A DNA stretch of 52,139 bases from an uncultured Actinomycetes bacterium (GTDB lineage Bacteria; Actinomycetota; Actinomycetes; Mycobacteriales; Mycobacteriaceae). The notes beneath the pieces are model-generated. The model made no database searches. It worked only from the letters and a program-made list of their open reading frames with translations, and had not been told where the DNA came from. The stretch is taken from NCBI GenBank assembly GCA_903877095.1, contig CAIRCP010000103.1:1-52139 (forward strand), given 5' to 3'. This document shows, in pieces, positions 9,154 through 34,429 of this stretch. Numbering within the stretch: position 1 is the first letter of the stretch; the number at the start of each line of letters is the position of its first letter. The position numbers were made by a program, and so were the translations under genes.

Positions 9154-9205
9154 GTTCCGCACACCTGAGCGGGTCGGCCCCTTCCTGTCAGTGCCCTCCG
9201 GCACC

Positions 9206-13123: not shown

Positions 13124-13945
13124 ATGGGGAGCCTGATCGATCGCGAGTGCGCAGCCGCCGGTACTGCCCGTGATGGTAAGACCGAGTCCTCGCTGGGGCA
13201 GTGGGAACGCCGGTCCGAGTGGCCGCTGGCCGCGATCGCCGTCCTACTCCTGATTGTGTGGTCGGTGCAGGTGCTCGCCCAGCCCCGCGCCGGGGACGCC
13301 TGGGAGTGGGGCATCAAGGCCCTGTGGGGCATCTTCGTGCTCGACTATCTGGTGCGACTGCGACTCGCCACCGACCGGGGGCGATGGTTCGTTCGGCATA
13401 TCGCGGAACTGGCGATGGTCGCGCTCCCGTTTCTGCGTCCGCTGCGGCTGTTACGCCTGCTGCATCTGTTCGGGAGATTGCACACCGCCGGCATGGGCGC
13501 TCTACGCGGCCGGCTGATCGTCTACACCGCTCTCAGCGTCGCGCTGCTCACCTATGTGGCGGCGCTGGCGATCTTCGACATCGAGCGTACGGAGTTCGCG
13601 AACTTCGGTAAGGCACTGTGGTGGTCGATCAGAACCGTGACCGCCCTGGGGTTTGGCGGAGAAGACCCCAAAGACTATAAAGGCCGGGCGATCGCGGTCG
13701 TGCTGGCTTTGGGGGGCTTCTGCTTGATCGGCGTTGTGACAGCGACGTTTTCGTCGTGGGTCGTTCAGCAGGTCGCCGACGAGGAAGCCGCCGACCAGGC
13801 GGTCACCGCCGCCGAGATCGAAGTGGTCCGATCCGATCTGGTGGAGCGGATCAACCAGCTCACCGCCGAGGTGCGCGAGCTGAAGGGTTCGTCCGGACAG
13901 CGGGGGGAAGGCGATGGCGATGTGGCCGTCCCACCACATTATTGA
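13124..13945 (+). CDS. Six-TM voltage-gated-type ion channel with altered selectivity filter
   Basis: 273 residues. Hydrophobic segments lie at about 34-52, 64-82, 95-116, 133-152 and 188-215, with a pore loop between the last two. The S4-like helix FLRPLRLLRLLHLFGRL has basic residues every third position. The filter region is TVTALGFGGED (171-181) where potassium channels have T-x-G-Y-G-D: Tyr is Phe and the final Asp is Gly. The C-terminus (216-255) is a predicted coiled coil. It is first in an operon with a SIR2-like/TIR protein and an nSTAND-WD40 protein, suggesting a membrane-depolarising effector rather than a housekeeping channel. Ion selectivity is unknown. Confidence 0.82.
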   Translation: MGSLIDRECAAAGTARDGKTESSLGQWERRSEWPLAAIAVLLLIVWSVQVLAQPRAGDAWEWGIKALWGIFVLDYLVRLRLATDRGRWFVRHIAELAMVALPFLRPLRLLRLLHLFGRLHTAGMGALRGRLIVYTALSVALLTYVAALAIFDIERTEFANFGKALWWSIRTVTALGFGGEDPKDYKGRAIAVVLALGGFCLIGVVTATFSSWVVQQVADEEAADQAVTAAEIEVVRSDLVERINQLTAEVRELKGSSGQRGEGDGDVAVPPHY

Positions 13946-13986
13946 CCCAAGAGGCAGATGATGGTTGGTGTGGGGAGGGGTCAGTG

Positions 13987-15369
13987 ATGAGTGGGGACGA
14001 GGATTTTTGGGCTGATCTGCTCGGGCATATGCGCGAGCAGGTTCTCATCCCGGTCGTCGGGCCGGACGTGTCCACGGTCGGCGCTGGAGGTGCCGAGCAG
14101 ACCCTCAGTGCGCTGATCGGTCAGCGTCTGATGGACCGGTACGGCCTGACGATGACGCCGCCGGTGACCGACATGGGTCAGGCGGTCGAGGCTTTCCTGC
14201 GCGACCGGGGCCGCGACGAGGCCGAGCGGCTGTATCGCGTGATCAATGACATCCTCTTGGAGCTTGATCCGGTGCCCGGCGCGGCGCTTCGGGATCTAGC
14301 CGCCATCGACGACATGCGGCTCTTCGTCAGCACCACCCCCGACCGGATGCTGGCCCAGGCGCTCAACGAGGTTCGCTTCCATGGGGATTCGCTCACTCGT
14401 GAGATCGCCTTCTCGCCCATCCAGTCCACCAGTGAGCAGGCGCGTAACGCCGCAGCGGGTCCGCCGGGGGAGACGGTGGTGTTGAGTCTGTTCGGTCAAG
14501 CCGCGTCCACGCCGCAGTATGCGATTCACGAAGAGGACCAGCTTGAATGGCTGCACGCGCTGATCAGTGACTCGGCGAGTCTGCCTCAGTGGCTTGGCGT
14601 TCCGCTGCGGCATCAGCCGATCTTGTTCGTGGGCTGCGATATTCCGGACTGGCTGGGAAGATTCCTGCTGCGGATGGAAAGCACGACACGGCTCTCCCTG
14701 GAGCGCAAGCAGTTCTTCCTGGTCTACTCCGCCAAGGTCAGCGAACCGTCGCTGTCGGCGTTCTTCGCCACGTACTGCAGCAGAACTCAGGTGCAGCAGC
14801 TGCAGATGGAGCCGGCGGCTTTCGTGGCGGAGTTGCGTGCCCGCTGGGAGAAACAGAACCTCACCCGGCCCCGCGCCGCGGCAAGTCGGCCGCAGGCCGC
14901 CGAGTCCGGCCCGCCGACCATCTTCATCAGTTACATGCGTGAGGATGTCGCTGCTGCCCGGGCGTTGGGCGAGGCGATTCAGGGCCTGGGCGGCGACGTG
15001 TGGCTCGATGAGCAACGGCTGTCGCCCGGGGATGCCTGGGAGCAGGACATCTTGGCAGCCATCCGCCGGACGGTGCGGCTGTTCGTTCCGGTGATCTCGG
15101 CCAACACCGAGCGCGAGGACGAGGGCTACGTGTTCCGGGAGTGGGCGGAAGCGGTCGAGCGTTCCCGGTCGATTCCGCGGCGACGGTTCATCGTTCCGGT
15201 GATCGTGGATCCCGACTGTCCGGGCGACCCCAGCGGGTATCGGCAGGTTCCCGAGGAGTTCCGGCAGGTCAACTTCGGTCGTGCCCCGGGCGGCGTGCCG
15301 GACGCGGCTTTGCTGGCGATGCTCACCGAGGAGATCCGCAACATGCGCCGCCCCGGAGGGGAATCGTGA
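13987..15369 (+). CDS. SIR2-like/TIR fusion protein
   Basis: 460 residues. The start is ATG 13987 behind GGGGAGGGG. Residues 15-290 resemble the SIR2-like domain of bacterial defence proteins: VLIPVVGPDVSTVG at the glycine loop, LFVSTTPDRMLAQAL at the TTN-D position, VVLSLFG, IHEEDQLEWLHAL, and ILFVGCDIPDWLGRFLLR. The catalytic His expected before L-F-G is Ser167, and the TTN motif is altered, so NAD hydrolysis by this part is doubtful. Residues 310-455 form a TIR domain (TIFISYMREDVAAARAL, VWLDEQRLSPGDAW) with the NADase Glu in place (E385 in YVFREW). The stop overlaps the next start as GTGA. Confidence 0.82.
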   Translation: MSGDEDFWADLLGHMREQVLIPVVGPDVSTVGAGGAEQTLSALIGQRLMDRYGLTMTPPVTDMGQAVEAFLRDRGRDEAERLYRVINDILLELDPVPGAALRDLAAIDDMRLFVSTTPDRMLAQALNEVRFHGDSLTREIAFSPIQSTSEQARNAAAGPPGETVVLSLFGQAASTPQYAIHEEDQLEWLHALISDSASLPQWLGVPLRHQPILFVGCDIPDWLGRFLLRMESTTRLSLERKQFFLVYSAKVSEPSLSAFFATYCSRTQVQQLQMEPAAFVAELRARWEKQNLTRPRAAASRPQAAESGPPTIFISYMREDVAAARALGEAIQGLGGDVWLDEQRLSPGDAWEQDILAAIRRTVRLFVPVISANTEREDEGYVFREWAEAVERSRSIPRRRFIVPVIVDPDCPGDPSGYRQVPEEFRQVNFGRAPGGVPDAALLAMLTEEIRNMRRPGGES

Positions 15370-18300
15370 GTCGGCCGATGCAGAGCAGCCAGGTCAACGC
15401 GGACAACCCGTGGCCGGGTCTTGAGGCGTTCGAGGAAAATGCGCGTGCGTTTTTCCGGGGGCGAGACCGTGAAGCCGAATCGCTGCTCAAGCGGGTGCTC
15501 GACGTTCCGGTGACGGTGTTGTACGGGCGTTCCGGGCTGGGCAAGACCTCGTTGCTGCGGGCCGGGTTGTTTCCGCTGCTGCGTGAACGGAACTTCTTGC
15601 CGATCTATGTTCGCTTCGACGTCAAAGCGGGTGCGGCGCCGCTGGCTGATCAGCTGCACCAGTCGGTCAGCCAGGCGATCGGCGCCGAGTTGCCCGACGC
15701 CATGCTGCCCGGCGATCAGGAGTCGGTGTGGGAATACCTGCACCGCAGTGACTTTGAGTTGTGGAGCGCTCAGAACTACCCGTTGACCCCGGTCATTGTG
15801 CTCGATCAGTTCGAAGAGCTGTTTACCCTCGGGGAGCGGGTCCCTGATCTTGTGGAGGACTTCCGCAACGATCTCGGGGATCTGGCGGAGAACCGCATAC
15901 CCGTGGATCTGTCCGCGCGGATCGATAAGGACCCTGCGCTGGCGGCGCGGTTCTCGTTGCGGTCGATGAATTACAAAGTGCTGGTGAGTCTTCGGGAAGA
16001 CTTCCTCGCCGATCTGGAAGTGTGGCGTCGGCTCATTCCCGCGTTGGGCCGTTCCCGAACGCGGTTGCGGCCCTTGGGCGCCGACGAAGCATTCGACGCG
16101 GTGCACACCCCCGCAGGCACCATGATGACGGCGGATTTGGCGCATCGGGTAGTTGACATCATCGCCGGCGAAGACCTGCAACGCGGCGGTGAGCGTGCGC
16201 TTGGTTCGGGCGCGGTGGTCGGCGAGCACCGGGGCGCGGTCGCGGTGGAGCCGGCGTTGTTGAGCTTGTTCTGCCGGGAGCTCAACGAAGAACGAAAACA
16301 TCAGGGGCGCAAGCAGTTCGACAGCGCCATGGTCGAGGGCGCCAAGACCGACATTCTGTCGAACTACTACCTGTCCTGTGTGCAGGGCCTGCCCGGACGG
16401 GTCGCTGACTTCATCGAATCCGAACTGATCACCGAGAAGGGCTTCCGCAACAGCTATCCCCGCGACGATGCGGTGCCGGAACACCTGACCGAGGACGAGC
16501 TGGCCGGACTGATTCGGTTGCGGCTGTTGCGGATTGAGGACCGCTACGGCACCCCGCGGATCGAACTGACCCACGACGTGCTCACCGGCATCGTGCGCGA
16601 ACAACGTGACCGGCGGCGCGTGGAGAAGGAGAAAGCCGCGCTGGCCGAGCGTGCGGAGCAGGAGCGACGGGAACTGGCTGAAGCGGCCGCGGAGCGCGAG
16701 GCGGAACTGGAGAGAGATCGCCAGCAGGCCGAATTGGAGGCTGCCCGCAAGTTGGCGGCCGCGGAGACCCTCGCCAAGGAGCAGGCCCAAGCGTATGCGG
16801 CGAAGCTGGCGGTCCGCACGCGGGTGTTGCGCTTTGCGGTTGCGCTCGTGGCGGTGGTGGCGATCGTTGCTGCTGGGTTGGGGTACGTGGCATGGCGTAG
16901 TTCTCAGCAATTGTTATACGCGGCAACGGTGTTGAGGCTCACTGCGAGCGGGCAGTCCCCCACGGCAGTACAGCGCCCGGGCGGGGAGTTCCAGGCTCTG
17001 CAGGAATTATTGGCCGCCTACTCGCTCGCCCGCGACAGCAAGGATCGGGACGTGCTTGCCGCGGCCGAGGAAGCGCTGTTCAATGCCGTCGTCAGCAGGG
17101 GTGAGCTGGTGCCCCGCGGTCTGGTGTGGATGCCCGGCGCTTTGGTGACTCGGTTGAGCACCGATCGCCGCCATGTCCTCGCTGTGAACACCCGGCAGTG
17201 CGTCGCGAGGGTGTGGGATTGGGCAACCGCGAAAACGTTGGGCCCAGCGATCACCCCAGTGGTTTCCACCCCAGGGGCCAACTGCAACTTCGTCGCCAGT
17301 CCCGACGGCCGCAGGATCTGGATGCGCCACACAGGCGCCGACGCTGACGTGGTGCAGTTGTGGGACAGCGCAACCGGCGAGCAGGTTAAGCCGCCGATCC
17401 CGACCCGGCAGGGCCGAGTTCGGGCGATCGCGGTCAGCCCGGACGGCCAGCGGCTCTACACCGGAGGCCAAGACGGCACAATCGCCGTCTGGGACAGCGA
17501 GAAGGGTGCACCGATCGGAGAGCGGGTGCGGCACGGCACGAAACCAGTCACGATAGTGAAACCCACCGCAGACCAGCATCGGTTGGTTTCGGCCGACGAG
17601 GATGGCACGGTCAAGGTGTGGGAGATCTCCACTGCCACGCCAACTCCGGTCCAAACCATTGCTGCCGGGCTCCCGCTGAACGACGTAGCGGTCAGTGCTG
17701 ATGGGCAACGTGTGCTGACGGCCGGCAGCGGCGCAGAGGTGTGGGATGTCGGCACCGGTCGTCACGTCGAGATTGAACGGACAATCGCGGAGGGGCAGAC
17801 CATCGATACGGTCGCGGTCTACGGCAGCACCGTGCTGACCGGGGGGAGCGCCGGGGAGGTGCAGCGCTGGGATATCAGCAACGGCAGCCAGCTGGGCGAT
17901 CCGATTTCGAACGGCTATCAGCCGGTGTACTTTGCGGAATTCGGCGACGCCGACAGCTTCAACTACTCCACCACTGACGGCACACTCCGGGTCCGCCAGG
18001 CAGATCCGGATTGGGTGCGATCACCGGACCAAGGAACCCAGATCCTCTGCGTGGCAATCAGCCCGGATGGGCGGCGGATCGCCACGGCAGAGGTAGCGCC
18101 CGGTCCGAAGTCCACGACGCTCACGGTGCGCGAGGTCGGCACAGGACAGGTTGTCGGGGCGCGGATGAAAATCGACAGCGTCGTGCTTCGGCTGGCGTTC
18201 AAAAAGGACGGATCCCGCCTGGTCTCCGGCGCCGAGGACGGCACCGCACAGATTTGGGATGCGTCAACCGGTGCGCCCGTTGACACCCCGATGCGAGTCG

Positions 18301-19079
18301 GCACCGGTGGTGTGTGGGCCGTTGCCGTGAGCCCCGATGGCCGCACTATCGTCACCGGCGACAGCGGTGGGGAACTGCGGATGTGGGACGCCCAGACCCA
18401 GAAGCCGCTGGAGCCCCCTGTGCTCGGCAAGCACGACAAACAGGTCACCGGTGTCGCCTTCAGCAGCGACGGACAGCGCCTCGTCTCGGGCGGCTGGGAC
18501 AAAAAGGTACGGGTCTGGGATCTACGCACCCGGCAGCAGATCAGCGTGATCGATGGGGATATGCCCGTCTTGAGCGTCGCAATCAGCCCGGACGGGAAAC
18601 GGGTCGCGGCGGGTTTGGGCCAGGGGCACGGCAACCGGGATGACCGCGGCGCCGTGCGGGTCTGGGACGCCGACTCCGGCACACCAGTGGGTGAACCGTC
18701 GGGCGATCTCGCCGAAAGCGTCCGCAAGGTGGCGTTCAGCCCCAACGGAGACTGGGTGCTCTCGGGTGCGTACGACCGCACGGTCCGGGTGTGGTCGGCA
18801 AGCTCAGGACGACAATTCGGTGAACCGATACCGACCGATCAGCGCTCGGCGGCGATCGAGGTGGCGTTCAGCCCCGACGGTGAGCGCATCCTGTTCGGAA
18901 CCGACTCGGGGGCAATGCAATTCCGACCGGGACCGGACGGCCTTCGCGAGCAACTGTGCGCCAAACTGTGGACCAACATGAGCCACCGGCAATGGAACCA
19001 GTGGGTCTCACCGGAAATCCCCTACCAACAGGTGTGTCCGAATCTTCCAGTCGCCGAGGATGACCCGCTGCCCTCCTGA
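15366..19079 (+). CDS. nSTAND1 NTPase with membrane anchor and C-terminal WD40 propellers
   Basis: 1237 residues from GTG 15366, coupled to the TIR gene (ATG 15378 is an alternative). NPWPGLEAFEENARAFFRGRD leads into Walker A (YGRSGLGKTSLL, Lys60) and Walker B (VIVLDQFEELF). Charged helix rich in E, R and A covers about 415-480, then one strongly hydrophobic helix at 488-510 preceded by RTRVLR. From about 580 onward come roughly 12-14 WD40 units ending in V-x-V/L-W-D, enough for two seven-blade propellers. By the positive-inside rule the NTPase is cytoplasmic and the propellers lie outside the membrane. STAND proteins act as ligand-triggered switches; the partner TIR protein is the likely output. 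Confidence 0.9.
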   Translation: MSRPMQSSQVNADNPWPGLEAFEENARAFFRGRDREAESLLKRVLDVPVTVLYGRSGLGKTSLLRAGLFPLLRERNFLPIYVRFDVKAGAAPLADQLHQSVSQAIGAELPDAMLPGDQESVWEYLHRSDFELWSAQNYPLTPVIVLDQFEELFTLGERVPDLVEDFRNDLGDLAENRIPVDLSARIDKDPALAARFSLRSMNYKVLVSLREDFLADLEVWRRLIPALGRSRTRLRPLGADEAFDAVHTPAGTMMTADLAHRVVDIIAGEDLQRGGERALGSGAVVGEHRGAVAVEPALLSLFCRELNEERKHQGRKQFDSAMVEGAKTDILSNYYLSCVQGLPGRVADFIESELITEKGFRNSYPRDDAVPEHLTEDELAGLIRLRLLRIEDRYGTPRIELTHDVLTGIVREQRDRRRVEKEKAALAERAEQERRELAEAAAEREAELERDRQQAELEAARKLAAAETLAKEQAQAYAAKLAVRTRVLRFAVALVAVVAIVAAGLGYVAWRSSQQLLYAATVLRLTASGQSPTAVQRPGGEFQALQELLAAYSLARDSKDRDVLAAAEEALFNAVVSRGELVPRGLVWMPGALVTRLSTDRRHVLAVNTRQCVARVWDWATAKTLGPAITPVVSTPGANCNFVASPDGRRIWMRHTGADADVVQLWDSATGEQVKPPIPTRQGRVRAIAVSPDGQRLYTGGQDGTIAVWDSEKGAPIGERVRHGTKPVTIVKPTADQHRLVSADEDGTVKVWEISTATPTPVQTIAAGLPLNDVAVSADGQRVLTAGSGAEVWDVGTGRHVEIERTIAEGQTIDTVAVYGSTVLTGGSAGEVQRWDISNGSQLGDPISNGYQPVYFAEFGDADSFNYSTTDGTLRVRQADPDWVRSPDQGTQILCVAISPDGRRIATAEVAPGPKSTTLTVREVGTGQVVGARMKIDSVVLRLAFKKDGSRLVSGAEDGTAQIWDASTGAPVDTPMRVGTGGVWAVAVSPDGRTIVTGDSGGELRMWDAQTQKPLEPPVLGKHDKQVTGVAFSSDGQRLVSGGWDKKVRVWDLRTRQQISVIDGDMPVLSVAISPDGKRVAAGLGQGHGNRDDRGAVRVWDADSGTPVGEPSGDLAESVRKVAFSPNGDWVLSGAYDRTVRVWSASSGRQFGEPIPTDQRSAAIEVAFSPDGERILFGTDSGAMQFRPGPDGLREQLCAKLWTNMSHRQWNQWVSPEIPYQQVCPNLPVAEDDPLPS

Positions 19080-19092
19080 GCGTCAGCGCCGC

Positions 19093-19118
19093 AGTTCCTT
19101 TAGCGCGAACGGGGAACT
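19093..19118. terminator. Possible bidirectional terminator hairpin
   Basis: AGTTCC (19093-19098) and GGAACT (19113-19118) can pair across a 14-base loop, with two G-T pairs extending the stem inward. It lies in the 49-bp gap between the convergent ends of the WD40 and MACPF-like genes. There is no U-run, as is common in mycobacteria. Weak, positional evidence. Confidence 0.3.
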
Positions 19119-19128
19119 ACGGGAAGTT

Positions 19129-21753
19129 TCACCTCTTGGCAGGCGGACTCGCGAGTTCGCCCAGCATGTTCAACAGATCGGTCCTGGGCTTCATCCACAT
19201 TGGTCCGCCGCCGGACGTCATCCATGTTGGTGGATCGTCGGACGTCTCGGCCACGGCATTTTCCACTGCGCGATAGCCGATCGGAACCAAGCGAACGGGG
19301 CAGCGCTCGAAGAGATTCTGATCCAGGCCGGGCCCTTGCTCCGGGCCCCAGAAAAACATCGCGTCATGCTCGGCGGAATAAGCGGCCCACACGCCTTCCG
19401 GCGTATCCAGTTGCCAGAGTGCCCCGTATTCGCCGTTGTCGTCCTTGCCGCTTGATTTCTTATCCGGTTGCACGGTGGCCCACTGGCTCGCGTCGTATGC
19501 GAGTTGGCCGGCGACCTTCAGCAGCGGTTTCTGCTCTGTGTCGAAGCCATCGTCGTCACCGGCGCCGGGATACAGCTGCATCCCGAACATCGATTTGCGA
19601 ACGTCCCATCGTTGTTGCAAGCAGTCTTCGTCGCTTTCCGGCCGGTTACGCCACCAGCCGGTCTCATTCTCGGCGTTGCGGACCTCGTCGGCGGCTCCTG
19701 TGCTCTGCTGGATCAGGATGGGCAAGGTCGTCTCGGCAAAGCTTTCCCCAAACAGGATCTTTCTGGGGTCAAACGGGTTGACGGCCTCATCGGGCCGATA
19801 GGACCGGTGGTTCCTCGGGTCGGGGGTAAACGACAGCAGTCCGCTGAACCTGCGGACCGCGTCGTCGTGATCGCCCGTGAGCCGTGACGGCGCGCCAACC
19901 CAGACGAAGTGCGGCTTGCCATCCGACTTCGTCGAGATGATCGGGTACAGGCGATAGGCGTTCATGGTGATCAGATCCGGCGGCGTGATGCTGTCCGCCG
20001 GTGTGTACCCGTTCCCCCCGTGCTGTATCGGACAGTTCGGTTCGGGATTCCGCTGATAGAAGTACTGCCCGTCCCGTTCGACGACGGCCACCGCCCCGAA
20101 GGGTACTTGTTTGAGCCATTCGTAATTTTCGATCCAATGACGGTAGTGCTCGTACATCTTGAAGTAATTCAGGTCAAGCTGCTTCTTCAGTCTGATTTCC
20201 ATTTCGTGGAGGAAACTGAGATCAGGTTTGGACGCTTTATTCGTCAGCCTCCTGGTCAGTTCTTCCCCGACCTCGTCCAACGCCGTGCGGAATTGGCGGG
20301 CGGCATTCTTGACGATGATTTCACGTCCTTGGCCATCGAGGACCACACCGGGAAAGTGGGCGCAGAAGTCGAGGTACTGCGCGAAAACACCTCTGATCGC
20401 AAACCACACCAGGGACTGGCCGAACACGACCTGGGAGATGGTGCGGGGCAAGCTGATATCCAGTTGGGGGAAGATGTCTTTCCACGCCTTGTAGCGGTAG
20501 CCACTGGGGGAGTAGCCACCAAGAGGCAAGTTCGGGCCGGTACTGGTATCGGCACTGTTGTCCGCGGCCCTGACGGAGCGCATTCCGCGAGCGGGAGCGG
20601 GTGCCTGGGCTTCGGTACGTTGTTCGTCGCTGAGCGCCTTTGCGTTGATCGTTTCCTCGGTGGCTTTCGCCTCGTCGTTCAGCGAGCCGAGTTCTGCCTG
20701 GATCGCGTTGTCCACGGCTGGGGCGTCGGACAGTGCCGTCGCGTCCCCGAGCCCAAGAACGTTGTACTGCAGTGCTTTGATCGCCGTTCCCAGGATGCCC
20801 GGGAGATTCGGCAGCGGGATATCCGGAATCGGCAGCGGGGAATACTCCAGGTTCGGATTCTCCGGGTCCGCCACCGATTCGGGCGCGACTTCCTTCCACG
20901 CCGCGGCGCTGAGGACTTCACTGATGCCCTTACCGTCGAGACTGTCCCGCGCTGTATCGGCCCATTGCGCAGCTTTGGACTCGGGGGGCCGGCCGAAAGA
21001 GCGTGCCGAGAAGGTCACTGTGGCATGTTCGTCCAGATGAGTCTTGCAGTACTCCGCGGCCCCCTCTGCGCCGACCAGAGGAAGCGAAACCGCAACGCCC
21101 CCACCGATCCTGAACGAATCACTGTGGACGTCACTTTCTCTAATCAGAGAAGCTTCGAAGATTCCATAGGCCATGAGACCGAGCTGGTCGATGAATCCCG
21201 TGCCGAAGGTGTTGTAGAAGGCGGTCAGTGCTGCAACCAACGCCGAGAAGTCAGCGGCGGTTGCCTTCGGTTTGTCGGCGGCCTTTGCTTTGTCGGACAC
21301 ATCTTTGAGCAACTGGTGGAACAGTTCGGTGCTGCAGTTCAAGTACTGCTGCGGGGTGGCCTTCAATAACGTCACGGACTTCTCGGCCTTGCTTACTCCG
21401 ACAATCGTGGCATTCGATGATCGCGTGCACGCGTTGAGCGTCTGCTTGACGTAAAACTTGACCGAAGCATCGACAATCCCGGTCTTCAGCCCCATCGACG
21501 CAGACGCGTTCCACCCCGATGTGTCTTGGGATTTTTCGTCACTGCCTCCGGCGTTCACTTCGGTCGCGTTGTCACCGGAGGTGATCCTCAATAATCCGCT
21601 GGCCCCCAGCTTTGCGATGTCGAAAGCCTGCGTGTCGAGCATGATCTGATTCGTGTCGACGTTGATAGGCGTGCCGATAGTGAGGGAATCAAACTCTTTG
21701 GGAAACGGGTTCAACGGATTGTCGTGGTTCTTCTTACCGTCATCGAAAGACAC
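19129..21753 (-). CDS. MACPF/perforin-like pore-forming protein (candidate)
   Basis: 874 residues from GTG 21753 behind GGGGGAA. No signal peptide: the N-terminus is hydrophilic (MSFDDGKKNHDNPLN). Residues ~40-320 look like a MACPF domain. A motif near 180-200 (ALTAFYNTFGTGFIDQLGLMAYGIFEASL) matches the Y-G-T-H-[YF]-[IV]-x6-G-G core, with Gly in place of His. Ser/Thr/Gly-rich amphipathic stretches that could become membrane hairpins lie on either side (NAGGSDEKSQDTSGWNASASMGLKTG and FRIGGGVAVSLPLVGAEGAAEY). The remaining ~550 residues match nothing I know; they are rich in Trp and aromatic residues. It shares a divergent promoter region with the patatin gene. The MACPF assignment is by motif and needs structure prediction. 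Confidence 0.6.
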   Translation of the reverse strand: MSFDDGKKNHDNPLNPFPKEFDSLTIGTPINVDTNQIMLDTQAFDIAKLGASGLLRITSGDNATEVNAGGSDEKSQDTSGWNASASMGLKTGIVDASVKFYVKQTLNACTRSSNATIVGVSKAEKSVTLLKATPQQYLNCSTELFHQLLKDVSDKAKAADKPKATAADFSALVAALTAFYNTFGTGFIDQLGLMAYGIFEASLIRESDVHSDSFRIGGGVAVSLPLVGAEGAAEYCKTHLDEHATVTFSARSFGRPPESKAAQWADTARDSLDGKGISEVLSAAAWKEVAPESVADPENPNLEYSPLPIPDIPLPNLPGILGTAIKALQYNVLGLGDATALSDAPAVDNAIQAELGSLNDEAKATEETINAKALSDEQRTEAQAPAPARGMRSVRAADNSADTSTGPNLPLGGYSPSGYRYKAWKDIFPQLDISLPRTISQVVFGQSLVWFAIRGVFAQYLDFCAHFPGVVLDGQGREIIVKNAARQFRTALDEVGEELTRRLTNKASKPDLSFLHEMEIRLKKQLDLNYFKMYEHYRHWIENYEWLKQVPFGAVAVVERDGQYFYQRNPEPNCPIQHGGNGYTPADSITPPDLITMNAYRLYPIISTKSDGKPHFVWVGAPSRLTGDHDDAVRRFSGLLSFTPDPRNHRSYRPDEAVNPFDPRKILFGESFAETTLPILIQQSTGAADEVRNAENETGWWRNRPESDEDCLQQRWDVRKSMFGMQLYPGAGDDDGFDTEQKPLLKVAGQLAYDASQWATVQPDKKSSGKDDNGEYGALWQLDTPEGVWAAYSAEHDAMFFWGPEQGPGLDQNLFERCPVRLVPIGYRAVENAVAETSDDPPTWMTSGGGPMWMKPRTDLLNMLGELASPPAKR

Positions 21754-21962
21754 TTATTTCCCCCAGTTGCTCGGCTGACCGTGCTGTTTTCGGCCAATTA
21801 ATGCAGGCTACAACCCGCGAGGTTACGCGGGCCGATAACTCCCGGCTAGTGCCAAAGGGATGGGTCAATTAATGCCAAAAGTCCCATAGTGGCCACACAG
21901 CCGAGCGGCGCACGGCGCGACTAACGTCGAGCAAGGACGTCCAACAAGACAAGAGGTTGACT
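21754..21962. promoter_or_regulatory. Divergent control region of the MACPF-like and patatin genes
   Basis: This 209-bp gap holds both promoters. CAATTAATGC occurs twice in direct orientation (21795-21804 and 21866-21875, 71 bp apart, near seven helical turns). Between them lies a small perfect hairpin, CCCGCG/CGCGGG (21814-21819 and 21826-21831). A variant, CAATTGATGC, recurs in the third divergent region of the island (29364-29373). AT content is clearly above that of the neighbours. A common regulator of the island is possible; none is identified. Confidence 0.45.
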
Positions 21963-23845: not shown

Positions 23846-23861
23846 CCCACTTCGGCAAGGG

Positions 23862-24707: not shown

Positions 24708-24906
24708 GTTCCATCCCCCTATGTGATGCCGCCGAACCCCCGTTGGGTGATCGCGCCTCGGCCGATGCCATGATCAGCCGTGCGCATTGCGGTCACCAAG
24801 GGTCATTGTGCTCTTTTCCGGTCACCGATGATCCGCAATTGCGTTGCCGGACCTAAACTGCACAGGGCAGGGGCAAGTGGTTCGGCCGTACGGTTGGGGA
24901 CTGTTG
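24708..24906. promoter_or_regulatory. Divergent control region of the caspase and CHAT-TPR genes
   Basis: A 199-bp gap between GTG starts on both strands. GGTCACC occurs twice in direct orientation (24791-24797 and 24820-24826). TAAACT at 24854-24859 is a reasonable -10 element for the rightward gene. No clear -35 element or palindrome is seen. Confidence 0.35.
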
Positions 24907-27759: not shown

Positions 27760-27778
27760 CGGGGGGCACCCGCCAGCT

Positions 27779-29149
27779 TCACCCCGTGGGTGCGGATGCC
27801 TTGATGAAATACATGATCGGATCGTTGAAGTGCAATGACTTCAACTCCTGCGGCGGAGGTGCTGGCGGCGGCCCCTCGATGATGACCGGCAGAATCTGTG
27901 GCTGTGACATCGAGTTGCTGCCCTGGCGGTTCAGCGCGTAGCGCCACTCTTTGGCGACCCATTCCGAAGCCTTCGCCGATGTGGACCAGAACAGCAGGAA
28001 AAGGTCGCAGCGGTCTATCTCCCGATAGATCTTCCGCTCCCACCGGTCGCCGGGCTCCAGGGTGAGGATGTCCTGAAAAAATTCGATACCGAACTCGGGA
28101 AGCATCTGTGTCCGCTTGAGCACCTCGACGCGATCCGCCGAGCAATAGGAGATGAAGGCGCGACGATAGTGATGCATCCCCTCGGTGACGGCCGGCGGTG
28201 GTGCAACCGCCGCCGAAACCGAATTGCGCACGCTGACTTTGAATTTCAGCTGGCCGACGGGTACCGATTCGCGGCTGACGATGATCGTGCCGATCACCGT
28301 GCGGGCGCCGATCTCTGCCGGAACAGTGACACCGAACTGGACCGACTGGGGGCTTTGGACCCACACCATGGTCTGCACCGGCTCATCGATCACCAGACCG
28401 GGCATCAGCAGTTGGAAGGCTAACCGCTGACCCGCCAGGATCGGTGACTGGAACATCACGGTGCCCAACCGGTTGCTGTCAGAATCGAATTCGCCGGCCT
28501 GCGCGGCGACCAGATCCCGGTCCTCGGGCCGGTGGGCGAACATCTGCACCAGAAACTGGGTGTCCGGGGCGACCAGAGCAGGGGCGAACACGGTGCCCGC
28601 GAGCTCGACGCCTGCTGAACCCGCCACGGCTGAATCGTCCTCGGCGGAGCCCACATCGACGCCAGGTTCTGGTTCGGCTGTGCCGAGGTCGGGGGCCAGA
28701 CCCCAGGACTGCGCAGGCTCAGTCGGGTGGAGATCATGAACGCCTCGTTCAGGGGCACGGACGCTCTCCGTTGGCGGACGCATTCCGTCCAATTCCGCGC
28801 TGAGTTGGCGGCGGTGTTGATCGCCGGAGCCGAAGTAGACGACCCGCCAGTCCGCCCACTCGGCCGGCAGTGCCTGACGGACATGCTCGACTCTGACCAG
28901 CAGAATCGGTTTGTGAAGGGCTCGTGCGGTCCGCACCTGCCGCTGGCAGGCTTCCGAATTCAGCCAGGCTTCGGAGAGGACGGCGATGAAGCCTTCGCAC
29001 TCGCCGATGCGCTGATCGATCTCGTCTGACGTCGCTGCCGTCGACGCGGGGACGCGCCGGGTCTGATAGCCCCGCCCGGACAACCACTCCACCAGATCGT
29101 CGGTGATCTCGCCATCCGGGCCGGCGGAACTGATGAACAGCCGTCTCAT
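27779..29149 (-). CDS. Tandem TIR protein with central beta-sandwich
   Basis: 456 residues from ATG 29149 (TTG 29161 possible). The first TIR (1-125) starts RRLFISSAGPDGEITDDLVEWL and has VLSEAWLNSEACQRQV, where the usual catalytic Glu is Gln71. The middle (185-310) looks like an Ig-like beta-sandwich. The second TIR (325-430) reads RRAFISYCSADRVEVLKRT, GIEFFQDILTLEPGDRW and SEWVAKEW with Glu401 in the catalytic place. So probably only the second TIR consumes NAD, and the first serves for binding or assembly. It ends 19 bp from the convergent CHAT gene and starts divergently from the lysin gene. Confidence 0.85.
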   Translation of the reverse strand: MRRLFISSAGPDGEITDDLVEWLSGRGYQTRRVPASTAATSDEIDQRIGECEGFIAVLSEAWLNSEACQRQVRTARALHKPILLVRVEHVRQALPAEWADWRVVYFGSGDQHRRQLSAELDGMRPPTESVRAPERGVHDLHPTEPAQSWGLAPDLGTAEPEPGVDVGSAEDDSAVAGSAGVELAGTVFAPALVAPDTQFLVQMFAHRPEDRDLVAAQAGEFDSDSNRLGTVMFQSPILAGQRLAFQLLMPGLVIDEPVQTMVWVQSPQSVQFGVTVPAEIGARTVIGTIIVSRESVPVGQLKFKVSVRNSVSAAVAPPPAVTEGMHHYRRAFISYCSADRVEVLKRTQMLPEFGIEFFQDILTLEPGDRWERKIYREIDRCDLFLLFWSTSAKASEWVAKEWRYALNRQGSNSMSQPQILPVIIEGPPPAPPPQELKSLHFNDPIMYFIKASAPTG

Positions 29150-29224
29150 CCACGCCCCCAAGCGATCCCGCCGTCGTCACGCGTCCGACGTCCAGAACGC
29201 AAACAATGCCATGAAGGGCTTGCC

Positions 29225-29269
29225 GGCCGAAAGGGACCTAAGTACTCGTAAACAAAGTCCCTTAAGGCC
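29225..29269. repeat. 13-bp imperfect inverted repeat in a divergent control region
   Basis: The arms GGCCGAAAGGGAC (29225-29237) and GTCCCTTAAGGCC (29257-29269) match at 11 of 13 positions and enclose 19 bases. The repeat lies between the start of the tandem-TIR gene (29149, leftward) and the lysin gene (29414, rightward). It could be a dimer-binding operator for both promoters. The GGGAC/GTCCC halves recall DosR-type boxes, but the fit is poor. A hairpin in the 5' leader of either transcript is the alternative. Confidence 0.5.
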
Positions 29270-29413
29270 TATTCGCCCGTGTCGGCTCTGTTATAGCTTC
29301 GCAAACAACCGGGGTGGAGAGGCTGACGGGGCTGCGGCGTTATTCAATCGCAGACTGGCCGAGCAATTGATGCCGGAAATTCTCTCAGTGAGTTAGGCAG
29401 TTAGGGGACGACG

Positions 29414-32400
29414 ATGGGAACGAAGAGCACGGCACCTCGATCGGAGGCGGCGCCGAAAAGCAGGGTGAACCTCGGGCCGGTGGGCAAGCAGATGGCAGAG
29501 TTCCTCGAACGCTATCCCGACGCCGAGGGCCTCCGCATCATCAGCGGCAACGACGGCAACCACGGGGCGTTGTCGCATCACTATGGCGGGCTCCGCTATC
29601 AAGGTTCGCCGACGGCCGCGCTCGACATCGTCTTCGAAGGTCCCGGCGGCGCTGAGAAGATGCGGGACCTCGCAAAGTGGTTGTACGACAACTACGCCGA
29701 CTTCACCGTCGAACTGATCCATACCTATGAGCGCGGCAAGAAGGGCGCGTACGTCAAGAACCAGAAGACGTACCCCGATGGAAGTGTCTACGGCGGACCC
29801 GCGGCGATCGGCCATGAGCATCACATCCATTGGGCGACATCGGCGGCGTTGCTGGAGCGGGCGAAGCTGCCACGAAGCAGGGACACCGGCCCCATTCCGA
29901 TGCCGGCGGGCGTCATTCCCGGACCCGGGGAACCGGCGGACGCAGTCGGCATCGCCAATACCGCCCCCGTGTGGGGATGGGACGCATCCAACAATGACTG
30001 GGATCCGAAGCGCGGTCCCATGGACCTGGTCAGTGCCCAACGCGATGGCATCTCCTTCTTCACCCACAAGGCCACCGAGGGCAGCGACTTCAAGGACCCC
30101 TACTTCAAACAAGCGCTGGAACGGGCTCGCGCGGCCGGGATTCCGGTGCTCGGTTGTTATCACTACCTGTGGCCGGACAACATCGAGGCGCAGGTCAACT
30201 TCTGGATGGACTACGTCGAGTCCCAGACTCCATGGTGGAAGGAAGTGCCGTGGATCTGGCAGATCGACGCTGAGAAAGATGGAGTGCCGCGTCCGCCCAC
30301 TCCAGAGGAGATCGCGCGCGCAGTTGCTGTGCTTAAGCGCCGCATGGAGATTCAAGGCACCAGGGGCTACGTCGTCGTCTATGCACCGCACTGGTTGTAC
30401 GAGAACTCCCTGGGCGCCGGCTATGACATCTGGAACAGCTACTACGTCGGTTCCGGCTCTCCGCGTGCGTTCAAGGAGCAGTACCAGGGTGTCGGGGACA
30501 AGTCGGCCGGCTGGGATCTGATGTCCGGCCGCGTCCCGCGGATCCTGCAGTTCAGCTCCGACGGCGTGGTGGGCCGCCAGAACACCTGCGATATCAATAA
30601 GTTCAACGGGGATTTGCACGCGTTGATCCGGCTCTGCGGTCGCGATCCCGGGCGTATCGGCGCCCCGGTCACCCAACTGGTGGCCGCGCAACGAGGGGGA
30701 CCGGACAAAGTCCTCTCCTACGACCATTCCGATTCCTTCCTCCGCCAGGAACAGTATTGGGACTGCGGACCAGCGGCGACCCAGATCGTCCTCAAGGCGC
30801 TGGGAATCGACGCAAGCGAGAGGACCCTCATCGCCGAGATCGGTACCACCGAGAACGGCACAGATTGTGTGCAGCTCATCGAGCGGGTCCTCGACAAGCG
30901 TCTGCCGGGAGCGAACTTCACATCGATCGAGATGAACAACGACCCGCCGACGGCAGCCGATAAGGAGACGCTGTGGAACAACATCGTCCGCTCGATCGAC
31001 GCCGGCTACGGGATCGTGATGAATTGGGTTGTCCCGCCGGGCAATTACCCCGTCGGTGTTAAAGGATCGGTGTCGCCGAGCTACAGCAACGGGACTTACT
31101 GGCACTATGTCGCGTGCATGGGCTACGACAGCACCCCGGGCAAGCGGGCGGTGTGGATGGCCGACGGCGGGTTCAATCCGCACGAGTACTGGATCAGTTT
31201 TGATCAGGCTGCAACGCTGATCCCGCCCAAGGCCTATTGCTTCGCATTGGCCGGCGCGAGGGCACCGGTTGGTGGGCAGACGGTAGCCCAACTACCGACT
31301 CAGCCGCCGTCGCGGAGCATGGCGAACGTGGTGCCCCACGATCTGGTCGGCTGGAGGCACACCTTCTCCGATGGTCTGACTCGCGATGCCGACGAGGTCC
31401 TGACCGCGGTCATGGAGTTTGTCATCGAATGGCGTAAGGCGCACGCCGTGTCCACGGCGACGGGCGCCGGGGTCGCGGAGGAGCACAGCTCCGTCGCGTC
31501 GCAATCCCGCGGCGTGGATCTCGCACCGCGGGCCGCTGTGGCTGTTCGCGGCCCGATAGATCCGGGACCGCCCGTCGAATTCGCCAGGAAGATAGGCAAT
31601 GTCACGGGTATCGGGATCACCGACCGCTGGGGTATCGGTGCCACCGATCTGGGGGTGATGACCCTGACGCCATCGGGGCGGATTCTTGCGGTATTCGGTG
31701 ACACTTTCCGGGGGGAGCGGGTAGGCAGCGCCGACTGGCGCGCCCCGGTCGGGTTGATTTCGGACACCAGGAATCTCGATGACGGCATCGTGTGGACCCA
31801 GGCAGCCGGCAGGGATCCGGGCTATGCCCGGCAATTCTGGGATTACAGTCACCTAACCCCCGCCGGCGTGAAGACGACGGTGCTGCCCTCGGACGTCATC
31901 ACCATCGGTGACGCCATCTATCTGCACACGACTGCCCATTTCCCCTTCGGCAATCCCGGTTTCGGGGAGATCTGGAAGTCGACCGACGAAGGCCGCACCT
32001 GGTCGCTGCGCGTACCCAATATGGACATCAACGCGCACGGTGGGCTCGCTCAGCTGTGGACGTGGGCTCTGGGCGACGACGATTTCGTGTACATCCTGTC
32101 GACTGCTTTCAACGTCGATAGGGATAGGGAGGTCATTCTTCGTCGCGTCCACAAGTGCCGGATCGAGGATCCTTCCGCGTACGAGGGCTGGGGATGGGGC
32201 ACGGACAACGGGTCCAGCAGTCCCGGATGGGCATGGGGCCGCGAGCCATCGCCGTTGACAGGCAAGGGATACGGCGAGATGTCCCTGCGCCGCATCGACG
32301 GGCAGTGGGTCTTCGTGGCTTTCAACAAGGGCTCGCGCCGACTCGACGTCCGCGTTTTCTCCAGGTTCGAGGACTACTCCTTCCGCCAGGAACCGACAGT

Positions 32401-32776
32401 GATCCCTATTTGGGGCTGTGACTGGGGTTCCGAGTGCGACGGATGTCCCGGAAAAGCCTGCTCGGTGGCGCAGTTGTACGGACCGTCGATCGTTCCGGGG
32501 TCCCGTCCAGGCTCCGGATTCCATATCCTGCTCAGCCAGTGGCACAACCCACCGGAAGATGGATTGCCCTATCACGCAATGCAATTCAAAATCCCCGTCC
32601 CGAGTCTTCGGCGCTCGCGCAGTCGGGCCGCGGCGCCGGAATTCGCGCCGTGTGAATCGGAGACGGACCCGAAGAAGCCTCGCAAGAAGTCCGGTAAGAA
32701 GTCCGGTAAGAATTCCGGTAAGAATTCCGGTAAGAAGTCGGGCAAGAAGGTGCGCCCGGACAGTGCCGCCGGTTGA
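29414..32776 (+). CDS. Multidomain cell-wall hydrolase: M15-like, GH25, C39 peptidase, DUF4185
   Basis: 1120 residues from ATG 29414 behind AGGGGACG. Residues 25-150 look like a zinc D,D-peptidase of M15 type (SHHYGG...TAALDI and HEHHIHWA). Residues 185-400 are GH25 muramidase (VWGWDASNNDWD, TKATEGSDF, WQIDAEKDG with the D-x-E pair). Residues 430-640 are a C39-like papain-fold peptidase (QYWDCGPAATQIV for Cys, YWHYVACMGYDS for His). Residues 725-1080 are DUF4185 (DLGVMTLTPSGRILAVFGDTFRG). The end is a Lys/Ser/Gly tail. No signal peptide or membrane helix is visible. Similar domain sets occur in mycobacteriophage endolysins, but no holin or phage gene is near. Confidence 0.85.
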   Translation: MGTKSTAPRSEAAPKSRVNLGPVGKQMAEFLERYPDAEGLRIISGNDGNHGALSHHYGGLRYQGSPTAALDIVFEGPGGAEKMRDLAKWLYDNYADFTVELIHTYERGKKGAYVKNQKTYPDGSVYGGPAAIGHEHHIHWATSAALLERAKLPRSRDTGPIPMPAGVIPGPGEPADAVGIANTAPVWGWDASNNDWDPKRGPMDLVSAQRDGISFFTHKATEGSDFKDPYFKQALERARAAGIPVLGCYHYLWPDNIEAQVNFWMDYVESQTPWWKEVPWIWQIDAEKDGVPRPPTPEEIARAVAVLKRRMEIQGTRGYVVVYAPHWLYENSLGAGYDIWNSYYVGSGSPRAFKEQYQGVGDKSAGWDLMSGRVPRILQFSSDGVVGRQNTCDINKFNGDLHALIRLCGRDPGRIGAPVTQLVAAQRGGPDKVLSYDHSDSFLRQEQYWDCGPAATQIVLKALGIDASERTLIAEIGTTENGTDCVQLIERVLDKRLPGANFTSIEMNNDPPTAADKETLWNNIVRSIDAGYGIVMNWVVPPGNYPVGVKGSVSPSYSNGTYWHYVACMGYDSTPGKRAVWMADGGFNPHEYWISFDQAATLIPPKAYCFALAGARAPVGGQTVAQLPTQPPSRSMANVVPHDLVGWRHTFSDGLTRDADEVLTAVMEFVIEWRKAHAVSTATGAGVAEEHSSVASQSRGVDLAPRAAVAVRGPIDPGPPVEFARKIGNVTGIGITDRWGIGATDLGVMTLTPSGRILAVFGDTFRGERVGSADWRAPVGLISDTRNLDDGIVWTQAAGRDPGYARQFWDYSHLTPAGVKTTVLPSDVITIGDAIYLHTTAHFPFGNPGFGEIWKSTDEGRTWSLRVPNMDINAHGGLAQLWTWALGDDDFVYILSTAFNVDRDREVILRRVHKCRIEDPSAYEGWGWGTDNGSSSPGWAWGREPSPLTGKGYGEMSLRRIDGQWVFVAFNKGSRRLDVRVFSRFEDYSFRQEPTVIPIWGCDWGSECDGCPGKACSVAQLYGPSIVPGSRPGSGFHILLSQWHNPPEDGLPYHAMQFKIPVPSLRRSRSRAAAPEFAPCESETDPKKPRKKSGKKSGKNSGKNSGKKSGKKVRPDSAAG
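32684..32749 (+). repeat. 12-bp tandem repeat coding a KSGK/NSGK tail
   Basis: About five tandem copies of a 12-bp unit close to AAGTCCGGTAAG encode residues 1091-1112 of the lysin-like protein as K-(K/N)-S-G repeats. The polybasic tail could bind teichoic-like polymers, nucleic acid or acidic wall glycans. Copy number is likely to vary among strains. Confidence 0.8.
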
Positions 32777-32797
32777 TTCGGTCTATCGTCTAAACCT

Positions 32798-33928
32798 ATG
32801 GCGGCGAATTACGGCTGGGATGACCTCAGCGATGCCTACGCCCAGTTGCAGGACCAGATTCAGCACGTCCACTCAGACTATCCAGAAACCGAGGATGCGG
32901 ACCCCACCTCAGACGACGATGACGATGACCCGAGTGATCAGGAGTCCCACGTTCCTCCGCCACCGGAGAGCGAAATCCAGAAGTTGGTCAAGGAACGGGC
33001 GCAACGTCTCACTGTTTCGCGGAATCACCTTGTGCGCCGCAGAGGAACACTGCTGACTGCGCTTGAGAAGTTAGGGACGAATCGCGATTGGCAGGCTGAA
33101 CTCGACTACTGGGTACGGGAAAGCCAAGAGGCCCAGATCGGTGCGTTGATGAATTGCCTGGACTTGCTGCTCGGCGTTGCGGGCCCAGTCGGTGAAGCGC
33201 TCAGGACTCACCATTACAACGGTGGTTGGTTTTGGACACGGTACCTGAGCAAAAAGGGCCAACTTGAGACCATTCAGGAGGGACTGCGAAATCACGAGTA
33301 CGCAACGCCGGAAGCGGAACGTGCTGCGTTGGAACTCGGCGCAGACATCGAGGCACTGACGAAAAAGATCTGCAGGGAATACGACCTCATTGACTTCTAC
33401 ACGCTCCTGGAAAAGGCGGGCCTGAAAATCCGACGTGGGGTCGAGGTCACGCGGGCGGTCGAGTCCTGCGCGGAAAAACACAATCTGCTCTTTGCCGCCC
33501 ACCAGATCACCGAGTTCATTGCCGGCGGCATCGCCGATATGGGACTGGTAACGATCGAGAAGACCCTCATCAAGGAGGGTGCGCTCGCGTGGGCCGTGGG
33601 TGTCCACCTAGCGAATTTTTTCATCCGCTTCGGTTACAACAGTTTCCGGTTCAGCACGGCATTCTCCGCCGTTCACACCATCCTGGCCGACATCGACAAC
33701 TCTGCAGCGACGGCCGAACGGTTGAGGAGCTTGGCAGGTGAGACAACAAAGCGGATACGGGACATCGACATTCAACTGAAGCAACTCCAACAGGTGCAGG
33801 GAAACGACAAGCAGGCGGCAAGACTCCTGAAATCCCTGAAAGCTGAAAGGCGCCAGACCGCATTCAACTCGGGTATGGGGACCGCCTATGCACTAGCAGC
33901 ATCGCCGGAAATGCCTGACAGGCCCTAA
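32798..33928 (+). CDS. Hypothetical helical protein with acidic N-terminal region
   Basis: 376 residues, family not recognised. Residues 28-50 are strongly acidic (TEDADPTSDDDDDDPSDQES), followed by a Pro-rich spacer. From residue 60 the protein is almost entirely helical. Two rather hydrophobic stretches, MNCLDLLLGVAGPVGEAL (about 115-132) and EFIAGGIADMGLVTIEK...ALAWAVGVHLANFFIRFGYN (about 235-280), could insert in or lie on a membrane. A coiled-coil end follows (RIRDIDIQLKQLQQVQGN). Base composition is lower in G+C than the flanking core genes, which fits recent acquisition. It starts 21 bp after the lysin gene and is probably cotranscribed; immunity protein or membrane-active partner are both possible. 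Confidence 0.7.
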   Translation: MAANYGWDDLSDAYAQLQDQIQHVHSDYPETEDADPTSDDDDDDPSDQESHVPPPPESEIQKLVKERAQRLTVSRNHLVRRRGTLLTALEKLGTNRDWQAELDYWVRESQEAQIGALMNCLDLLLGVAGPVGEALRTHHYNGGWFWTRYLSKKGQLETIQEGLRNHEYATPEAERAALELGADIEALTKKICREYDLIDFYTLLEKAGLKIRRGVEVTRAVESCAEKHNLLFAAHQITEFIAGGIADMGLVTIEKTLIKEGALAWAVGVHLANFFIRFGYNSFRFSTAFSAVHTILADIDNSAATAERLRSLAGETTKRIRDIDIQLKQLQQVQGNDKQAARLLKSLKAERRQTAFNSGMGTAYALAASPEMPDRP

Positions 33929-33943
33929 CGAGGAGGAGATGGA

Positions 33944-34429
33944 ATGGATTCAATGAGCGAACCCGGTCATGGAGGTTGCCCGGACACGGCCACCTTGACC
34001 GAGGCAGATGTGCGGTCGAACCCGCCGGCGGGCGCCCATATTGCCTGCCATCGTTTCAACGTCTACTCCGATCCGCCCGGGGCTCACATCTACGCGGCTA
34101 ACAACTATTGGGGTAAGACCGGTTTGGACACACCCGTGACTGGGTACTGGTGGTGCGCCGTGACATGGAACGAACAAAAGCGCGAGTGGACATGGGCCAG
34201 GGACTCGGTGCTCGCCACAGCCTCCGTGCTGCAAATCACCTTCACTGCGAAACGGGTTAATTGCAGTGACGCAACGCAAGTCATCGAGCTTCATGGCCAG
34301 GATTTTCAGGTCAGATCCGGAACACCTGAAGAACTGACCGCGTCGGGTCTGCTCGGGCATTGCCCGTCTGAAGAGCCCGCCTACACCAGCGACGTGATGC
34401 TCGTCCTTCAGTCTGGGGACATCATCTAG
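33944..34429 (+). CDS. Small hypothetical protein with PEGA-like segment
   Basis: 161 residues from ATG 33944, six to seven bases after GAGGAGG. The region NVYSDPPGAHIYAANNYWGKTGLDTPVTGYW (about 38-68) resembles a PEGA repeat (x-S-D-P-P-G-A-x-V-Y-x...G-x-T-P), a beta-sandwich usually found in surface or membrane-anchored proteins. The rest is also beta-rich and contains five Cys (residues 12, 34, 71, 104 and 137 approximately). No signal peptide is seen. It follows the 376-residue protein by 15 bp, so both form an operon with the lysin. Function unknown. Confidence 0.65.
   Translation: MDSMSEPGHGGCPDTATLTEADVRSNPPAGAHIACHRFNVYSDPPGAHIYAANNYWGKTGLDTPVTGYWWCAVTWNEQKREWTWARDSVLATASVLQITFTAKRVNCSDATQVIELHGQDFQVRSGTPEELTASGLLGHCPSEEPAYTSDVMLVLQSGDII

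Follow-up and report, generated by a model that had tools for sequence, protein, structure and literature searches.

The 52,139-nucleotide contig analyzed here (hereafter the window; contig CAIRCP010000103.1 of assembly GCA_903877095.1), which derives from an uncultured member of the Mycobacteriaceae, carries a dense block of defense-type genes between ctaB and qor. We consider it probable that this block is an acquired island of separable defense-type units, and that four of its genes, encoding a predicted MACPF (perforin)-fold protein, a lysin-A-like wall hydrolase, and two orphan proteins, make up a unit that would break the cell from inside. The four genes are regarded as a lysis unit because of the MACPF fold predicted for the first product, the lysin-A-like and GH183 character of the second, and the lack of a hydrophobic segment in either.

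A predicted perforin-lysin unit in two genomes

In the window, the unit comprises the gene of the 874-residue MACPF-like protein (positions 19129..21753, minus strand) and, on the plus strand, the genes of the composite wall hydrolase (29414..32776), a 376-residue orphan that serves as a marker of the unit (32798..33928), and a 161-residue orphan (33944..34429) that is weakly PEGA-like (E value of 0.088, under the cut-off). In one other genome, G1106, the lysin, orphan 376, orphan 161, and MACPF genes are directly adjacent. The G1106 proteins are 42% (MACPF), 59% (orphan 376), and 46% (orphan 161, over 128 residues) identical to those of the window, and the lysin is 54 to 56% identical over its GH183/DUF4185 part. 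The front of the G1106 lysin is different and consists of an Rv2525c-type glycoside hydrolase, Amidase_2, and PG_binding_1 in place of the GH25 and C39 domains found here. The GH183 domain is therefore the constant element, and the peptidoglycan-cutting domains are interchanged between the two genomes. No LSDAT_prok and no Peptidase_C14 match was found anywhere in the G1106 genome, and thus the four-gene unit is independent of the other island genes; the 60 kb read around the unit likewise gave no match to any other island protein. A gene for a Chagasin-family (I42) cysteine peptidase inhibitor (L110:11080-11685) is located roughly 1 kb ahead of the lysin gene in G1106.

Two of the partners are rare. 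When 396 genomes of the genus were scanned for the MACPF family, 2 gave a match (the source and G1106), as did 1 of 397 genomes of the order (the source) and 1 of 100 genomes around G1106 (G1106 itself). These sets overlap, and in the genus and order scans no more than the top two candidates of each genome were scored. Relatives of orphan 376 came from a protein search, in which 8 other proteins were found among the 7,995 best candidates scored of 5.8 billion. The pairing of MACPF, lysin, and orphans is present in none of the profile libraries used. A chance adjacency of the four genes seems implausible.

The label "MACPF-like" in the initial annotation is supported by the predicted fold of the protein, which has no match in Pfam, PADLOC, NCBIfam, or PHROG and no sequence match in the PDB. 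A fold search returned 36 PDB matches at an E value of ≤0.001, 35 of which are complement, perforin, or pleurotolysin entries. In the predicted structure, the MACPF region spans approximately residues 17 to 438 and includes a low-confidence Ala/Pro/Arg linker at approximately residues 378 to 408. The residues F179, G184, T185, and G186 are invariant across 16 sequences. The signature site reads FGTGF, with a glycine at the position of the histidine of the canonical motif (Y-G-T/S-H-Y/F). The fold matches support a MACPF fold for the modeled protein, which would presumably form pores. No hydrophobic segment was found in the scan of this protein, and the arginines in its linker could provide a protease site.

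The initial annotation described the 29414..32776 product as a four-domain wall hydrolase. Such an enzyme is indeed encoded, with an N-terminal domain of no recognized family followed by GH25, C39, and GH183/DUF4185 domains, and the description is now to be amended in that the protein is a relative of phage lysin A. It was matched by 637 of 50,697 phage records, 418 of which are Mycobacterium phages by name, and by PHROG endolysin families (best E value, 1.6e-104). The C39 domain shares 60 to 65% identity with lysin A for most of the mycobacteriophage matches listed. The C-terminal domain is 50% identical to the endolysin of Rhodococcus phage Finch, and across the DUF4185 domain our protein shares 40.5% identity with the lysin of Gordonia phage GMA6. 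The motifs QIDAE, DCGP, and WHYV, presumably holding the catalytic residues, are all present, and the protein thus has the peptidoglycan-cleaving domains of a lysin A. The DUF4185 domain (PF13810; E value, 1.5e-63) aligns with PDB entries 8an0 (7.6e-23) and 8hhv, an endo-alpha-D-arabinanase (4.9e-9); two endo-alpha-D-arabinanase entries align in total. Both key aspartates of GH183 are kept (GATDLG and FGDTF) and are 18 residues apart. Because the protein unites GH25, C39, and GH183 domains, it is predicted to cut both peptidoglycan and arabinan. Like phage lysins that need a holin, the window lysin has no hydrophobic segment. It also has no recognized signal peptide or export signal, and neither a holin nor a lysin B was recognized among the annotated genes of the block, where small holin-like open reading frames (ORFs) were not searched for.

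The strong similarity to phage lysin A domains could also be expected if the lysin operon were a leftover prophage lysis cassette without a present function. We regard this explanation as very improbable. Only the lysin was matched among the seven block proteins compared with PHROGs, and orphan 376 and the MACPF-like protein had no relative in the viral-contig scans, in which the lysin matched one contig. Moreover, G1106 carries an intact relative of each of the four genes (42 to 59% identity over the matched parts). A prophage remnant is thus disfavored by both the PHROG comparison and the viral-contig scans.

The nature of the C-terminal domain bears on the target of the enzyme. According to a study on DUF4185 (PMC10115798), these proteins are GH183 endo-D-arabinanases that cut the D-arabinan of mycobacterial walls; the catalytic aspartates of the enzyme described there are also 18 residues apart, and the DUF4185 domain of phage GMA6 is among those with endo-D-arabinanase activity on arabinogalactan. 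An arabinan-cutting specificity would also suit a weapon or release device directed against neighboring mycobacteria with D-arabinan in their walls; the lysin and the perforin would be set free when a few cells lyse, or would take an unrecognized export route. This is the main rival to self-lysis, and it gains from the differences in the catalytic domains ahead of GH183 between genomes, as expected under rivalry, and from the lack of any other island protein match within the 60 kb read in G1106. The proteins, however, carry no hydrophobic segment and no recognized export signal, and we noticed neither an immunity gene nor a secretion gene in the block, which was not searched systematically for them. 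We judge a weapon to be possible but rather unlikely, and both a dead prophage piece and a single integrated system (discussed below) to be less likely than that.

Under the preferred reading of a self-lysis unit, a trigger would activate or release the MACPF protein in the cytosol, and the protein would open pores in the inner membrane, replacing the phage holin. The lysin would then pass through these pores and cut the peptidoglycan with its GH25 and C39 domains and the arabinogalactan above with its GH183 domain.

Several observations weigh against this interpretation. The MACPF model has a predicted local distance difference test (pLDDT) score of 71, the template modeling (TM) scores are ≤0.28 among the matches listed, the whole protein gave a best Foldseek E value of only 9.9e-3, and its C-terminal half matches no known fold. 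The first 200 residues of the lysin match none of the families used. Only one other genome was seen to contain the four-gene unit, and its MACPF gene flanks the lysin operon on the opposite side. The MACPF and lysin genes of the window are 7.7 kb apart, with the patatin, SLOG, caspase, CHAT, and TIR-TIR genes in between, and the MACPF protein could now be serving these. Finally, DUF4185 domains are common in these bacteria, each of 4 genomes giving 2 to 6 matches, so that the weight lies on its adjacency with rare partners and not on the domain itself.

An island at a variable chromosomal site

The ctaB gene (8176-9153; UbiA) was detected in all 59 genomes of the genus that were searched, including the source. 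The stretch beyond ctaB was fetched from 20 of the other 58 genomes (the 19 best ctaB matches and G058), and 19 of these congeners were usable; in the remaining one (L106) the contig ends before qor. The distance from ctaB to qor is 26.8 kb in the window, compared with −3 to 4230 bp in the 19 congeners (10 at ≤125 bp, 2 at 370 to 445 bp, 4 at 969 to 1544 bp, and 3 at 2854 to 4230 bp), and the island proteins tested have no match there in any of the 19 (tblastn, E ≤ 1e-8). The GC content is 0.632 over positions 13124 to 34429 versus 0.68 in both flanks, and the GC content at third codon positions (GC3) ranges from 0.69 to 0.82 in the twelve genes of this interval versus 0.85 to 0.93 in the nine flank genes measured. 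Because the site is empty in congeners and the GC content of the block is lower, the block was most likely acquired at a variable site. A cluster of defense-type genes that is absent from the same site in relatives corresponds to a defense island, and the phrase "immune/cell-death island" used in the initial annotation fits both the domain content and the empty site. No integrase was recognized among the block genes. A plasmid origin was considered and rejected, as the MACPF protein had no plasmid match and a search of 72,556 plasmid records gave only 2 matches to the SLOG protein, both weak.

The twelve genes previously placed at 13124-34429, and the families named for them, were borne out by domain searches and, for the MACPF-like protein, by fold prediction. 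The start of the block has to be moved, since the extra DNA begins at 9146, directly after ctaB. Its first gene encodes a type II DNA methyltransferase (9146..10855, plus strand; PADLOC PDLC03301, E = 5e-194; N6_Mtase, E = 4e-13), the longest ORF of which overlaps ctaB by 8 bp. It is followed by a probable restriction enzyme partner (10848..11825, plus strand), whose longest ORF shares 8 bp with the methyltransferase gene. This protein has almost no recognizable family (weak PADLOC REase_II match, E = 0.0072) and, judged otherwise from its position, may be a divergent restriction enzyme. The third gene encodes a DUF2235/Tle1-like phospholipase-type hydrolase with GxSRG motifs (11842..12945, minus strand; PF09994, E = 4e-88). 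Between the island and qor, two tandem genes for MspA-type porins with 35% mutual identity are located on the minus strand (34450-35879).

Immune-type genes of the block

Coding frames were picked by third-position GC content plus family matches. A plus-strand ORF at 19909-21369 and a minus-strand ORF at 29393-31291 were rejected as genes, since each is overlapped by a frame with higher GC3 and, for the latter, with family matches. The twelve genes span approximately 21 kb with intergenic gaps of −4 to 252 bp, and they alternate in strand without forming a single operon. Putative catalytic-type motifs were found in the patatin, caspase, CHAT, nSTAND1, and wall hydrolase proteins.

The first of the twelve genes encodes a small cation channel with a C-terminal helical tail and three hydrophobic segments above the scan cut-off (13124..13945, plus strand; PF00520, E = 1.8e-10; PF07885, E = 2.9e-10). 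The next product (13987..15369, plus strand) had been annotated as SIR2-like/TIR. Its TIR part is clear (TIR_2, E = 6.4e-16), while its SIR2 part is degenerate and weak (SIR2_2, E = 0.0049, under the cut-off) and reads VGPDVS at the position that typically holds a GAG-type loop. The gene overlaps by 4 bp that of a receptor-like protein (15366..19079, plus strand) composed of an nSTAND1 NTPase (E = 1.2e-28; Walker A/B motifs), a hydrophobic stretch (residues 487-505), and WD40 repeats. Beyond the MACPF gene, a patatin-like phospholipase with intact DGGGIRG, GTSTG, and DGG motifs (21957..23087, plus strand; PF01734, E = 5.3e-25) overlaps by 4 bp the gene of a TRPM-type SLOG protein (LSDAT_prok; 23084..23845, plus strand; PF18171, E = 8.8e-62), which is predicted to be a sensor of, or an enzyme acting on, a ligand derived from nicotinamide adenine dinucleotide (NAD). 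A C14 caspase-like protease with its His and Cys present (YAGHGG, SDSCHSG) is encoded at 23862..24707 on the minus strand (PF00656, Peptidase_C14; E = 4e-23). The protein at 24844..27759 (plus strand) is a CHAT protease with both the His and the Cys residue (E = 1.4e-33), joined to the predicted sensor TPR-S (E = 4.5e-13). Two TIR domains make up the product of 27779..29161 (minus strand; TIR_2, E = 2.7e-32, two stretches), the second with SEWVAKE and the first with SEACQRQ, in which Gln replaces Glu.

Relatives carry subsets of the island

The initial annotation proposed that these genes form one inducible system. In its strongest form, such a system would be an integrated cascade in which SLOG and TPR-S sense an NAD-derived signal produced by the TIR and SIR2 domains, and the cell is then killed jointly by the proteases, the lipase, the MACPF protein, and the lysin. 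The compactness of the island, with all parts inside 21 kb and gaps of −4 to 252 bp, is in its favor, as are the arginines of the MACPF linker, at which a protease could act. A distribution of the genes as separable units was, however, found in the relatives.

The patatin (72% identity) and SLOG (55%) genes are kept as a pair in the congener G058, in which they are followed by a 537-residue protein without a family and two nSTAND1-WD40 proteins with TIR-like N termini; the G058 genome has no C14 caspase match. In Mycobacterium senegalense (G514), the caspase and SLOG genes occur together with that of a 1923-residue DUF7379-LCAT-like-CHAT-TPR-S protein, whose C-terminal part is 58% identical to our CHAT-TPR-S protein. 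M. senegalense thus fuses a lipase-type domain to CHAT, whereas the source block has a separate patatin. The LSDAT-type SLOG is rare, with matches in 2 of 198 genus genomes and 20 of 397 order genomes, source included. When 18 of the 20 SLOG-bearing order genomes were compared (leaving out the source and the weak hit G358; 7 further genomes had contigs that could not be matched to loci), the caspase gene was located within ~1 kb of SLOG only in M. senegalense.

Other neighbors of SLOG include SLATT-type membrane effectors, which it adjoins in two cyanobacterial metagenome-assembled genomes (MAGs) and one genome of the order (L030, L033, and L038). On two cyanobacterial contigs (L030 and L031), genes near SLOG encode triple-TIR proteins, of which one also has CHASE2 and another WD40. 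In one cyanobacterial MAG (L033:202-1722), a DUF4231/SLATT two-helix membrane domain is fused to a GH19 endolysin-like enzyme approximately 500 bp before SLOG. The GH19 part matches the PWe2 endolysin (E = 2.4e-22), and by its domain makeup the protein resembles a holin fused to a lysin.

The CHAT query matched 18 of 396 genomes of the phylum, most of them over part of the CHAT domain. Apart from the source, a match spanning most of the query was obtained in G866 alone; in that genome (L087:6156-13073), a subtilase gene directly precedes the DUF7379-CHAT-TPR-S gene, as if the subtilase stood in for the caspase. On plasmid pRL31b3 of Rhizobium leguminosarum (L061:8950-13237), a CHAT-TPR-S gene is followed by those of a muramidase-type GH108 enzyme and a 249-residue orphan, and the three are enclosed by two genes for TIR-nSTAND1-WD40 proteins. 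The unannotated Ensifer locus (L062) contains SIR2_2, nSTAND1, and CHAT, and no lysin was identified in it. CHAT relatives in Paracoccus yeei (L060/L064), Paracoccus sp. TOH (L063), and Azotobacter (L059) have no SLOG, caspase, or lysin neighbors in the incomplete annotation of these loci, which speaks against a fixed CHAT system. Endolysin-type enzymes therefore accompany immune-type genes in three unrelated settings (the window, R. leguminosarum, and the cyanobacterial MAG), a small unsystematic sample that arose from scanning of neighbors and does not represent a rate.

The grouping of SLOG, caspase, and CHAT-TPR-S in M. senegalense, and that of TIR, nSTAND1, CHAT-TPR-S, and a GH108 wall enzyme in R. 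leguminosarum, can be cited for a single system. The full set is nevertheless present in no examined genome, the perforin-lysin unit exists in a genome without LSDAT_prok or C14 matches, the caspase gene adjoins SLOG in only 1 of the 18 order genomes, and the alternating strands exclude a single operon. Scattered and never adjacent homologs had been named in the initial annotation as the finding that would speak against it; the homologs are scattered, as that prediction of failure required, while subsets of them are adjacent. Because relatives carry subsets only, we reject one twelve-gene system, and we consider an integrated cascade improbable in general.

Comparison with known systems and implications

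The island shares elements with several known systems. Thoeris consists of a TIR protein that produces a signal, encoded next to a SIR2-SLOG effector or receptor (ThsA), and type IV Thoeris combines a TIR gene with a caspase-like protease sensing N7-cADPR; SLOG is the receptor in Thoeris, and TPR-S is a sensor of NAD-derived signals. TIR, SLOG, and caspase genes are likewise close together in the island. The island, however, has no TIR gene beside a SIR2-SLOG gene, since its SLOG is in an operon with the patatin and its SIR2 part is fused to TIR, and it adds two separate TIR proteins, nSTAND1-WD40, and CHAT-TPR-S. The TIR and caspase genes of type IV Thoeris are both represented but are not side by side. 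The block also does not qualify as a cyclic oligonucleotide-based antiphage signaling system (CBASS), as the patatin scores 114 bits against a CBASS_lipase cut-off of 200 and Pfam searches with the fifteen block genes gave no CD-NTase.

Bacterial gasdermin loci consist of a caspase-like protease and a gasdermin pore. The island resembles them in that it contains a predicted pore-fold protein together with caspase-like and CHAT proteases, and gasdermin pores appear among the VIA rows for the MACPF-like protein. In contrast to gasdermins, our 874-residue protein matches MACPF best and has a large extra half, and the only other locus examined belongs to a genome (G1106) without a C14 caspase match. 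The lysin is multidomain and without a signal, as in phage holin-endolysin cassettes, but it is chromosomal, ends in a GH183 domain, and is accompanied by the MACPF-like protein and two orphans in place of a recognized holin.

Conflict systems built from STAND, caspase, and SLOG domains have reportedly been predicted in articles of the Aravind group in J Bacteriol (2020) and NAR (2015). The island draws on the same building blocks as those treated in PMC7159879 and PMC8195603. In the former, lysozyme- and papain-like effectors attacking peptidoglycan are predicted and linked to EAD1 domains, and PEGA domains are predicted in such systems. No EAD domain was recognized in the window, and our lysin differs from those effectors in being phage-lysin-A-like with GH183. 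A word search of these two texts found no mention of MACPF, endolysin, or DUF4185, and among the titles, starts of abstracts, and term counts listed by literature searches there was no paper that describes the MACPF-lysin unit or this island; in one search, which gave 1,206 papers with at least two of the terms, none of the 20 listed contains MACPF. The building blocks are all known, but none of the papers listed describes a predicted MACPF-fold protein paired with a GH183 lysin and two orphan families.

The remaining genes would provide infection sensors and effectors, namely, SIR2-TIR with nSTAND1-WD40, the tandem TIR protein, patatin-SLOG, and the caspase with CHAT-TPR-S, which would act through NAD-derived signals in what may be an anti-phage role. 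A bolder proposal, which we hold to be doubtful, is that a captured phage lysin was joined to a mycobacterial perforin to give a mobile suicide unit. In that case, the MACPF protein would replace the holin, the lysin would be a swappable multienzyme that cuts D-arabinan, and in this island the unit would be controlled by the TIR/SLOG and caspase/CHAT proteins, for instance, through cleavage of the MACPF linker. If true, bacteria would have their own equivalent of the lytic cell death driven by perforin. The presence of patatin-SLOG, caspase, CHAT-TPR-S, and TIR genes nearby would make caspase control of the pore testable gene by gene.

To our knowledge, how abortive infection proceeds through the arabinogalactan-mycolate wall of mycobacteria is an open matter. 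A chromosomal, predicted perforin-fold protein combined with peptidoglycan hydrolases and an arabinanase would amount to a self-lysis kit for such a wall, and it would mean that a phage-type lysin and a perforin fold were recruited together by a bacterium. In other phyla, the endolysin-type enzymes beside CHAT-TPR-S and SLOG extend the idea of peptidoglycan attack, put forward for some STAND-linked effectors in PMC7159879, and provide cases in which it can be tested.

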